From an uncultured Alphaproteobacteria bacterium (GTDB lineage Bacteria > Pseudomonadota > Alphaproteobacteria > HIMB59): 64,000 bases of DNA. The notes beneath the pieces are model-generated. The model was not told the origin of the DNA and did no database searches. It worked only from the letters and a program-made list of their open reading frames with translations. Of the stretch, positions 57,935 through 60,886 are shown one piece after another. The stretch lies in contig CACBDV010000001.1 in NCBI GenBank assembly GCA_902538085.1, positions 231,766-295,765 on the forward strand, given 5' to 3'. Made by a program: the position numbers and the translations under genes. Each line of letters starts with the position of its first letter. Position 1 is the first letter of the stretch.

Positions 57935-58654
57935 GTGTATTTCAAAGGAATAAATTCTTATGGGGATCGAGGTTTAGTCTTAGATTTTGGGAATGAAACC
58001 TCAAAATCTATATCACAGGAGGTAAATGAGACATTTTTAAATATTTCAAACCTTAATCTTCAATCACTAAACATTATTCCTTCATTCAATAAAATAGTTG
58101 TAATTTTTGAAAATTCAAAAATTAGAGATCAAAACAAAGACAAAATTATTATGAAAATGAAAGATACAAACTCTCAAACTAACAAAAAAGTCACTAAAAC
58201 ATGGAAAATACCGGCATGTTATAATGAAGATTTTGCTTTAGATATAAAGATCATCCAAAAAATACACCAGATTACAAAAGAAGAGGTTATCAATCTTCAC
58301 TCATCAGTTCGTTACTATACATATTATATAGGCTTCATGCCGGGATTTCCATATTTAGGGGATGTTCCCTCCCAATTAATCACACCACGGTTAGCTACTC
58401 CAAGGGTAAAAATTCCTGCTAGATCCATTGGCATTGCAAAAAACCATACCTGTATATATCCAAAAGTTTCACCTGGAGGTTGGAATATAATTGGACAAAT
58501 ACCATTTGATATTTTTGATTTACAAAGTTCTTACCCTTCCCTTTTTCTTCCAGGTGATAGAGTAAAATTTTACTCCGTATCACTTTCAGAGTTTGAAAAA
58601 ATTAGAAAATATAATTTTTCATTAAATGAATTGATCAAGGAATACTCGTCATGA
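57935..58654 (+). CDS. pxpB: 5-oxoprolinase subunit B
   Basis: A 239-residue PxpB/KipI protein. YYIGFMPGFPYLGDVP and TPRLATPRVKIPARSIGIA are family signatures, and SPGGWNIIGQIPFDIFD follows. It forms the ATP-dependent 5-oxoprolinase with PxpA and PxpC. The start is GTG at 57935. The ATGA at 58651-58654 couples it to pxpC. Confidence 0.92.
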   Translation: MYFKGINSYGDRGLVLDFGNETSKSISQEVNETFLNISNLNLQSLNIIPSFNKIVVIFENSKIRDQNKDKIIMKMKDTNSQTNKKVTKTWKIPACYNEDFALDIKIIQKIHQITKEEVINLHSSVRYYTYYIGFMPGFPYLGDVPSQLITPRLATPRVKIPARSIGIAKNHTCIYPKVSPGGWNIIGQIPFDIFDLQSSYPSLFLPGDRVKFYSVSLSEFEKIRKYNFSLNELIKEYSS

Positions 58655-59529
58655 ACTCAATCATAATCACTCGTGCAGGGACTCATTCAACGATTCAAGA
58701 CTTTGGAAGATTTCAATATCAGCACTTAGGAGTTTCACCAAGTGGAGCAATGGACCAAAGAATTATTACAGAGCTACAAAAAATTATACCCAATCATCAA
58801 AATCAATTTCTAGAATTTGCTTATGTGGGGCCTTCAATAAAAGTAAAAGAAGGATCTGTTAAGATTTGTGTTGGTGGTAATTGTAATATGAGTATTCAGA
58901 AAAATAACAACAGCCAGCTTGAGTGCCAGCCCTATAAAAGTATTAATTTATTTGAGGGCGATGAATTGATTATTCACAATACAATAGACTCAGTATATGG
59001 ATACATAGCTTTTGAGCATGGACTTGGGTTAGAGCCTTGTCTTAATAGCTACTCTACTGACACAAAAGCAGGAATAGGTTCGATTAATCGACCTTTAAAT
59101 GATGAAGATATATTTCACATTAGCAAAGATGTAAGCTCTTGGGATCTTATCTCTATACCAAAACCTGATTTAGAAAAGGTAACCAACTTCAAAGTATATC
59201 CCGGTCCTCAACTTCAATATTTCTCAGACAATACTCTACAATCTTTTATTAGTAGTGTTTTTACAATAACTAATCAAAGTGATCGAATGGGTATCAGACT
59301 CAAAGGTGAGAGTCTCATTAGTTCTAAGTCTCATGATATTTTGTCTGAAGGAATATTACCAGGTTCTATTCAAGTGCCAAGTGATGGGCAACCCATTGTA
59401 TTAATGCGGGACATTCCTTGTACTGGCGGGTATCCAAAAATTGCTATTTTAAGTGAAGTGGATATTTCAAGAATCTCTCAGCTCCCCCCTGAAACCAAAA
59501 TCACCTTCGATTTACAAACAATCTATTAG
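58651..59529 (+). CDS. pxpC: 5-oxoprolinase subunit C
   Basis: A 292-residue PxpC/KipA protein. Signatures include TRAGTHSTIQDFGRFQYQHL, GVSPSGAMDQR, VYPGPQLQYF and SDGQPIVLMRDIPCTGGYPK. It partners PxpB in the 5-oxoprolinase. The stop is 24 bases before the photolyase-domain gene, which may share the transcript. Confidence 0.92.
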   Translation: MNSIIITRAGTHSTIQDFGRFQYQHLGVSPSGAMDQRIITELQKIIPNHQNQFLEFAYVGPSIKVKEGSVKICVGGNCNMSIQKNNNSQLECQPYKSINLFEGDELIIHNTIDSVYGYIAFEHGLGLEPCLNSYSTDTKAGIGSINRPLNDEDIFHISKDVSSWDLISIPKPDLEKVTNFKVYPGPQLQYFSDNTLQSFISSVFTITNQSDRMGIRLKGESLISSKSHDILSEGILPGSIQVPSDGQPIVLMRDIPCTGGYPKIAILSEVDISRISQLPPETKITFDLQTIY

Positions 59530-59553
59530 CACAGATTTTATGTATAATTAAAA

Positions 59554-60291
59554 GTGAAAATCTCAAGTGTTCAAGATCTAATACCAATATCGAAAAATTC
59601 GAATAGCTCCATATTATCAAGACATGATGCACTGGAAAAATTCAATTCTTTTAATCCTGCTCTCTATGCAAAAACAAGAAACTTTTTGAATGGACAAATT
59701 TCAAGATTATCAGCCCATATAAAATATGGAATCATCACTAACAAAGAGCTCTATCAATATATTCGAGAAAAATATAATTTTGTTGAGAGTGAAAAGTTTA
59801 TTCAAGAATTAGCATGGAGAGATTTTTGGAGAAGCTATGCCTACCATCATCCTGATCAACTATGGACAGATGTAGAAGAATATAAAACTGGATTTGAAGC
59901 TCAAGAATATCAAGATAACTTGCCTGAGGATATTATGTCAGCAACAACACCAACACAGATTATTAATATTTTCATCGAGCAACTCACTAGCACTGGGTAC
60001 CTTCATAACCATGCACGTATGTATTTGGCTTCTTATATTATTCACTTTAGAAGAGTGAAGTGGCAAGCTGGAGCGAAGTTTTTTTTGAGTCATTTACTGG
60101 ATGGAGATATTGCAAGTAATAACTTCTCTTGGCAGTGGATCGCGAGTACCTTTGCAGGAAAACCTTATATATTTAATTTAGAAAATGTTCACAAATATTG
60201 TCACAAAAGCATAGATATTATACCTGAGAAGAATAGAGAAATAGATGGCAGCTATGAAGAAATTAGCTCTAGGCTCTTTCCCAATTTATGA
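59554..60291 (+). CDS. Stand-alone photolyase/cryptochrome FAD-binding domain
   Basis: A 245-residue protein that is only the helical C-terminal domain of a DNA photolyase. ISRLSAHIKYGII (49-61) matches the conserved SRLSPHLAFGLIS. FIQELAWRDFWR (82-93) keeps Glu85, Trp88 and Arg89 of the CPD site. HNHARM (151-156) matches HNRLRM with one Arg changed to His. LLDGDIASNN (181-190) and WQW (193-195) are the FAD-binding and Trp-chain segments, and Trp170 aligns with the second chain tryptophan. The GKTGYP..DA motif is missing. Start GTG at 59554. An ATGA overlap joins it to the next gene, which looks like its missing N-terminal half. Confidence 0.82.
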   Translation: MKISSVQDLIPISKNSNSSILSRHDALEKFNSFNPALYAKTRNFLNGQISRLSAHIKYGIITNKELYQYIREKYNFVESEKFIQELAWRDFWRSYAYHHPDQLWTDVEEYKTGFEAQEYQDNLPEDIMSATTPTQIINIFIEQLTSTGYLHNHARMYLASYIIHFRRVKWQAGAKFFLSHLLDGDIASNNFSWQWIASTFAGKPYIFNLENVHKYCHKSIDIIPEKNREIDGSYEEISSRLFPNL

Positions 60292-60683
60292 ACTTAATTT
60301 ATTTATATGACGAGTTTATGAGAGTGCCAGCCGGTATTGAGGGTAATCCTGTTTACATCTTTGATGATACTTTAACTGAAGGCTATGAGCTTAGTGACAA
60401 AATCATTGAAAATAGATACTTTTTAGCCAAAGAGGCAGGGGCTGAAATCTATAGAGGTAATACATATGAGATATTGCAAGAAATTCATAACCAAAACACC
60501 ATATCCAAAATTATAACAAAATCTACTTTTAGACCTATTTATCAAAATTTATTTCAAAAATTAGGTGAAAAATATGATTTAGAGCAGTTACCCGATTACT
60601 TCTTATTGCAGGAGAATTATCTTCATCCAGCAAAAAGATTTTTTCAGTATTGGAACAAAATTAAGAAAAATTTAAAATATTAG
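60288..60683 (+). CDS. Photolyase N-terminal alpha/beta domain as a separate protein
   Basis: A 131-residue protein that aligns by eye over its length with the photolyase N-terminal domain: MNLIYLYDEFMR like LVWFRxDLR, NPVYIFDDTLTEG, then a helix ending in FLAKEAGAEIYRGNTYEIL like ALxEKGIPLLFRE. The C-terminal HPAKRFFQYWNKIKKNL is like MYKVFTPFKNAWLKRL. This domain usually binds the antenna cofactor. It is encoded immediately after the FAD domain gene with a 4-base overlap, in reverse of the normal domain order. The match is by pattern, not by a search. Confidence 0.65.
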   Translation: MNLIYLYDEFMRVPAGIEGNPVYIFDDTLTEGYELSDKIIENRYFLAKEAGAEIYRGNTYEILQEIHNQNTISKIITKSTFRPIYQNLFQKLGEKYDLEQLPDYFLLQENYLHPAKRFFQYWNKIKKNLKY

Positions 60684-60685
60684 TC

Positions 60686-60886
60686 ATGGCTGAGAAATGC
60701 AAATATTGCGAGGGAGAGTTATCAGTCATGGACAGTGTGTATATTGAATCTGAAATTCGAACAGCACCTAAGAAAGTTCAAAATTTAATTAAAAGTCATC
60801 ATAATCTTGTCTGTTACATGTGTTATAAAAAACTAAAAGCTATTAAAGTGATAAATACTGAAGATAAAAATAAAAAATTAAATTAA
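60686..60886 (+). CDS. Cys4 zinc-ribbon mini-protein, unknown function
   Basis: A 66-residue protein with two CxxC pairs, Cys5/Cys8 (KCKYCEG) and Cys43/Cys46 (VCYMCYKK), spaced like a small zinc ribbon. It has no known family to me. It lies 2 bases after the photolyase N-domain gene and would be the third gene of that operon. The stop shares TTAA (60883-60886) with the convergent ligase gene. Confidence 0.6.
   Translation: MAEKCKYCEGELSVMDSVYIESEIRTAPKKVQNLIKSHHNLVCYMCYKKLKAIKVINTEDKNKKLN

Follow-up and report, generated by a model that had tools for sequence, protein, structure and literature searches.

Within a 64,000-nucleotide stretch of DNA from an uncultured alphaproteobacterium of the HIMB59 lineage (assembly GCA_902538085.1, contig CACBDV010000001.1, positions 231,766 to 295,765; "the window" below means this whole stretch), two overlapping genes, P1 and P2, probably encode the two subunits of a single photolyase of the SPL/Phr4-Phr5 kind, in which the flavin adenine dinucleotide (FAD) domain precedes the alpha/beta domain, the reverse of the usual order, and which would dock and repair DNA as proposed below. 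This assessment is of the statement as a whole: homology, gene order, selection and pairing were observed, and complex formation, flavin and antenna content and lesion specificity would be expected from the family. Reverse-order photolyases, split or fused, are already known from picocyanobacteria (PMC9426592; here and throughout, published papers are cited from extracts of their texts). What is new is the occurrence in Alphaproteobacteria of a two-gene form that lacks the four iron-sulfur (Fe-S) cysteines, together with the strict pairing of the two halves in every sampled genome that has the two-gene form. A preliminary description of this DNA had read the locus as a photolyase whose two domains are encoded by separate genes in reversed order, a view borne out by the profile evidence given below (PF03441 for P1; PF00875 and hhalign for the P2 family). 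The open reading frames (ORFs) of 245, 131 and 66 residues, the ATGA overlap and the 2-base gap are also as it gave them. The features central to the argument are as follows:

59554..60291, + strand: P1, predicted FAD-domain subunit (SPL/Phr4-like), 245 residues, GTG start; read from PF03441, PDB photolyases and 18 same-genus loci.
60288..60683, + strand: P2, predicted alpha/beta (antenna-type) subunit (Phr5-like), 131 residues; read from PF00875 matches in its family, hhalign and an AlphaFold model.
60288..60291, + strand: ATGA shared by the stop of P1 and the start of P2; present in all 18 same-genus loci.

Judged from its sequence, P1 is a photolyase FAD domain. It scored 86 bits against PF03441 (FAD_binding_7), for which the cut-off is 27, the match covering positions 1–134 of the 203 in the profile, and it matched the PDB photolyases 1tez and 1owl with an expect value (E) of about 1e-22. 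PMC9426592 lists 13 positions in contact with FAD; when P1 is aligned to the A. nidulans enzyme (1owl), nine of them are identical. The protein contains E85, W88, HNH (151–153), DGD (183–185), NN (189–190) and WQW (193–195); it lacks the GKTGYP motif, and the PF03441 model is unmatched in its final third. All of these motifs, and the missing GKTGYP, had been noted in the preliminary description. The HNH, which it had set against the conserved HNR, is indeed present, but it is no departure: YLHNH or YVHNH occurs in 86 of 86 P1-family loci, and the second His in all 87 rows of the family alignment. E85, W88, R89, N152, W170, D183, N189 and W195 are each kept in 86 or 87 of these 87 rows; we take E85, W88, N152 and W195 to be lesion contacts. 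As for the electron-transfer chain, W193 is kept in 83 rows and W170 in all 87; the third Trp (the W314 position) is variable in a part of the alignment that is loose. A complete four-cysteine Fe-S site is found in 52 of the 87 rows and in none of the seven from the window's genus. No P1 relative at 60% identity or more turned up in the plasmid and phage collections (168 and 10 records, respectively); the plasmid search did yield fused Deinococcus forms.

The second protein is, by profile homology, a separate photolyase alpha/beta domain of the antenna type. Its family was gathered with an iterated profile seeded with the window's P2, and its members adjoin a FAD-domain gene in several phyla. 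Of 44 such members, 17 matched PF00875, the strongest at E 2e-7. When the family profile was run against PDB sequences, cryptochrome N-domains came out on top, starting at E 3.6e-4. Aligned with hhalign to the N-domains of five conventional photolyase-family proteins, the P2 family scored 97.9% (E 3.2e-13, 131 columns); the control alignment to the FAD domain scored 0.7%. Natural fusions give the same picture: the C-terminal part of an alignment of ten fused relatives matched the P2 family at 99.0% (E 2.8e-18), and the C-termini of the seven fusions of the Burkholderiales type did so at 91.4% (E 8.9e-7). The AlphaFold model of P2 (predicted local distance difference test score, pLDDT, 85.6; predicted template modelling score, pTM, 0.74) has five strands with alternating helices. 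Of the two profile matches that the preliminary description had proposed as a check, that of P1 was obtained directly and that of P2 only through its family. Matches of P2 to DUF3567 and BTH_I0359 (E 0.01–0.03) and to S6 kinase (E 0.2) fell under the cut-off and were dismissed.

The relationship between the two genes was then sought beyond the window. Candidate loci on genome contigs numbered at least 594. Among the 80 that scored best, P2 lies immediately downstream of P1 in 53 (with a 4-base overlap in 21 of them, starts being chosen by rule), is fused to it in 10 (single ORFs of 391–499 residues) and is non-adjacent in 17. In all 17 of the last group P2 was found elsewhere in the same genome, and some of the contigs simply end beside P1. 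P1-type proteins of similar length occur in many phyla. Because these loci were the best-scoring ones and not a random draw, samples of alphaproteobacterial and cyanobacterial genomes were drawn. Nine of 289 alphaproteobacterial genomes carry a P1-type gene (E 1e-111 or better), the next matches being at E 4e-51 and weaker and mostly longer single ORFs. Strong P2 matches (E 2e-29 or better) come from exactly those nine genomes, and in each of them the gene is directly downstream. In the same 289 genomes the P2 profile also weakly matched nine longer ORFs (E 8e-6 to 7e-4); all four that were inspected are N-domain-first photolyases. Among the 146 cyanobacterial genomes, 25 carry a P1-type gene (E 1e-114 or better), and an identical set of genomes carries P2. 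Here the genes lie within 400 bases of each other in 13 genomes and are non-adjacent in 12: farther apart on the same contig in eight (by at least 35 kb in five) and on other contigs in four. Beyond these 25, one genome of the cyanobacterial sample, G369, has a fused form of the Burkholderiales type. Across the two draws, 34 of 34 genomes with the two-gene form carry both halves, a strict pairing that holds even where the genes are not neighbors.

In the window's genus, P1 was found in 18 of the 25 genomes searched, the window's own included. All 18 loci have P2 after P1, with the ATGA overlap and an ATG start of its own, and pxpC upstream; the preliminary description had asked for a survey of gene order in relatives, and here the order is conserved. 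P3 (the third gene, described below) and an acyl-CoA synthetase gene follow in 17, and the remaining contig ends there. The same block stands in a same-genus genome that is a single 1.4-Mb contig (G069). Where dS between two loci was 1.2–1.7, the ratio of nonsynonymous to synonymous substitution rates (dN/dS) was 0.05–0.09 for either gene, showing that P1 and P2 are under purifying selection; one close pair is treated below, and the other pairs were saturated.

A tree of 94 rows was built, leaving out L062 and L089 (incomplete) and L044, L045, L049 and L051 (removed by a DGD-only filter). P1-type proteins and those of the NewPHL type stand apart from five conventional photolyases (100/100), and the NewPHL-type rows form a single clade (100/100); the program flagged long branches, and deep placement is unsure. 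The window's P1 falls in a 19-row clade of split forms (97/95) with partners from SAR116, other Alpha- and Gammaproteobacteria, an Acidobacterium, Chloroflexi and a Clostridia bin. It belongs to the same family as Nostocales proteins, a family set apart from conventional photolyases at 100/100 in a tree that did not include the RS9916 Phr4. On well-supported branches, the fused state must have changed at least three times. A model of one fused relative (L110; pLDDT 92.8, pTM 0.91) matched photolyases and cryptochromes over 206–293 columns among the best 50 rows, in a sequential search that is blind to swapped domain order and to the packing of the two lobes.

How does this locus compare with described systems? 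The closest are the split phr4/phr5 and fused phr6 of marine Synechococcus and Cyanobium, reported by Haney et al. in 2022, in which the FAD domain also comes first (PMC9426592); a two-gene pair had been noted, and a heterodimer suggested, in 2012 (PMC3441193). The window shares with Phr4/Phr5 a leading FAD-domain gene, an adjacent alpha/beta-domain gene and the existence of fused forms, a likeness to the published description, the RS9916 sequences being unaligned (PMC9426592). Moreover, Nostoc, which is said to share the Phr4/Phr5 gene set (PMC9426592), falls in the window's P1 family. There are two differences: Phr4 and Phr6 have a full set of four Fe-S cysteines, whereas the window's P1 has no complete site, and the genes overlap by 4 bases in the window, compared with a 7-bp spacing in phr4/phr5 (PMC9426592). 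Since no row from the window's genus has the complete four-cysteine site, we class the locus as a variant of Phr4/Phr5. The "undescribed system" of the preliminary description is thus already in print (PMC9426592, PMC3441193). Nor is P1 itself undescribed: it fits the published description of the SPLs (Xu et al. 2021), which have a FAD domain and lack an N-terminal alpha/beta domain (PMC9178010, PMC9649867, PMC9498864; SPL and NewPHL also in PMC13274461), the comparison being with that description and not with the sequences of Xu et al. It has been suggested that all photolyases and cryptochromes may descend from antenna-less proteins of the SPL kind (PMC9649867, PMC9498864). In contrast to an SPL as described, with no alpha/beta domain, P1 has P2 next door, and in the family P2 may also be C-terminal or elsewhere in the genome. 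In the open-access literature searched we found no statement that SPL genes are paired with an alpha/beta partner across phyla; subscription papers and the original reports may say more.

NewPHL, or Phr7 (Emmerich et al. 2020), is a single chain of inverted order, FAD domain first (PMC9426592, PMC13274461, PMC8948257). The D. shibae protein, called a photolyase, has only a Trp dyad (PMC8948257). P1 resembles these proteins in its leading FAD domain, its apparent Trp dyad and the YLHNH motif found in the NewPHL-type proteins compared; it differs in that the window has two ORFs instead of one chain with a C-terminal Z-domain, and in its separate clade (100/100). The C-terminal part of the NewPHL-type proteins gave no detectable hhalign match to P2 (0.6%). 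The NewPHL-type label of rows L024–L038 is taken from organism and layout. Single-chain reverse-order proteins of this type (379–408 residues; L024–L032, with L025) replace P1/P2 in the sister family and in the same-genus genome G023. We considered whether those of 380–398 residues in G023 and the sister family were unsplit P1+P2, and dropped this idea on the grounds of their separate 100/100 clade and of a C-terminus that does not match P2. One of them (genome G032, L031:2511-3737) has a long asparagine run, against two or three at that place in related proteins, either a repeat expansion or an assembly fault. With class I cyclobutane pyrimidine dimer (CPD) photolyases such as E. coli PhrB and the A. 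nidulans enzyme, the window shares a homologous FAD domain (E 1e-21 to 1e-22) and a homologous alpha/beta domain; those enzymes are one chain with the alpha/beta domain first, HNR and GKTGYP, whereas the window's is split and reversed, with HNH and no GKTGYP.

We propose that P1 would carry the FAD and the DNA-lesion pocket, and that P2 would be the alpha/beta lobe that precedes the FAD domain in the chain of an ordinary photolyase. Translated right after P1 by way of the ATGA overlap, which makes translational coupling probable, P2 would dock on P1 as a second polypeptide, and there either bear an antenna chromophore or close the FAD pocket. Blue or UV-A light would then excite the reduced FAD, which would pass an electron to an ultraviolet (UV) photoproduct, most likely a CPD.

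Several observations weigh against this proposal. The window's P2 alone retrieved nothing significant from Pfam, NCBIfam or the PDB sequences (phmmer); three of the 44 family members weakly matched Usp (best E 0.0053); and the C-termini of the seven Burkholderiales-type fusions had no direct match to conventional N-domains (0.7%). In a Foldseek search with the P2 model, the top match was a universal stress protein domain (E 2.3e-4), photolyases and cryptochromes making up 37 of the best 50 rows at E 0.012 or weaker. The fold alone therefore cannot decide between a photolyase N-domain and a universal stress protein; the sequence profiles decide. P1 is absent from seven of the 25 same-genus genomes, which are bins 54–93% complete, and in one close pair dN/dS was 0.24 for P1 (0.04 for P2). 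As for the published pair, loss of phr4 had no UV-B effect, and phr4/phr5 shielded E. coli from UV-C independently of light (PMC9426592).

The Foldseek result would suit a reading in which P1 by itself makes up a complete photolyase of minimal, antenna-free form, as published for SPLs, and P2 is a universal stress protein-like operon neighbor with a separate function. One SPL reportedly repairs CPDs alone. We nonetheless regard this as unlikely, given the profile homology of P2 to photolyase N-domains, the single ORFs that join it to the FAD domain at 10 of the best 80 loci and the identical sets of P1 and P2 genomes in both draws. Might the two genes instead yield one chain? Programmed frameshifting at the junction, suggested for phr4/phr5 (PMC9426592), would agree with the overlap kept in all 18 same-genus loci and with the existence of natural fusions. 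In the cyanobacteria whose P1 and P2 genes lie far apart, however, frameshifting cannot fuse them, and two polypeptides must therefore suffice; we argue that it is not obligatory in the P1/P2 family. That argument does not extend to the window's own genus, where P2 has a separate ATG start in 18 of 18 loci. Overall, we judge a single chain made by frameshifting very improbable.

That the pair is a cryptochrome-like blue-light sensor and not a repair enzyme also appears quite improbable. The third electron-transfer Trp is apparently missing, and three other photolyase-family loci in the genome may make repair redundant. Against this stand the near-invariance of E85, W88, N152 and W195, the Trp dyad of the D. 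shibae NewPHL called a photolyase (PMC8948257) and the UV-C sensitivity of a Synechococcus phr4 mutant (PMC9426592); beside P1/P2, neither an output domain nor a signaling gene was seen. A repair enzyme is the better guess. Finally, the missing GKTGYP motif and last third of the PF03441 model might mark P1 and P2 as remains of a decaying photolyase gene, a reading we find scarcely credible in view of dN/dS values of 0.05–0.09, intact genes in all 18 genus loci and the spread of P1-type proteins of about this length across many phyla.

The preferred reading, a two-subunit reverse-order photolyase, bears on the SPL class. The presence of both halves in all 34 two-gene genomes of the two draws, often apart from each other in cyanobacteria, suggests that SPLs are not antenna-less and that the alpha/beta lobe works in trans. 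More tentatively, and as something we would not bet on, SPLs may be obligate two-component photolyases with a free-standing alpha/beta lobe that was fused C-terminally several times; the antenna-less ancestor would then be an artefact of a single-gene view, and the textbook enzyme may have arisen when two proteins, once separate, were joined in the opposite order. A naturally split photolyase offers a system for asking what the alpha/beta lobe does.

Two further features adjoin the pair:

60686..60886, + strand: P3, 66 residues with two CxxC motifs (Cys4), starting 2 bases beyond P2.
59543..59548, + strand: TATAAT box, 5 bases ahead of the P1 start; read from the sequence.

P3 was confined to genomes of the window's genus: it was present in 18 of 40 genomes searched and in three of the other P1-family loci scanned, all of this genus. 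A 61-residue homologue with two CxxC motifs stands in G023, which has no P1/P2, three genes from the acyl-CoA synthetase gene (L134:2365-2550). Owing to this genus-only occurrence and the G023 copy, P3 is a genus-level neighbor and not a core part, and a role as third subunit was dropped; the Cys4 mini-protein of the preliminary description stands as the third gene of the genus locus and no further.

The TATAAT box could be a promoter for a leaderless P1-P2-P3 message separate from pxpBC; at the matched position the 18 same-genus loci read TATAAT (13), TATAAC (2) or TATAAA (3). The pxpB/pxpC-like (5-oxoprolinase) genes lie on the same strand at 57935–59529, 24 bases upstream of P1, and P1–P3 may be read together with them. 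The window's genome has three more PF03441 loci (L001, L002 and L004, with open frames of 474, 479 and 302 residues, the last cut by a contig end), making P1/P2 one of four photolyase-family loci. Two fused forms of the Burkholderiales type came from genomes whose title or bin is probably wrong: L111, from a bin titled Klebsiella pneumoniae, and that of G369, a genome among the cyanobacterial ones.
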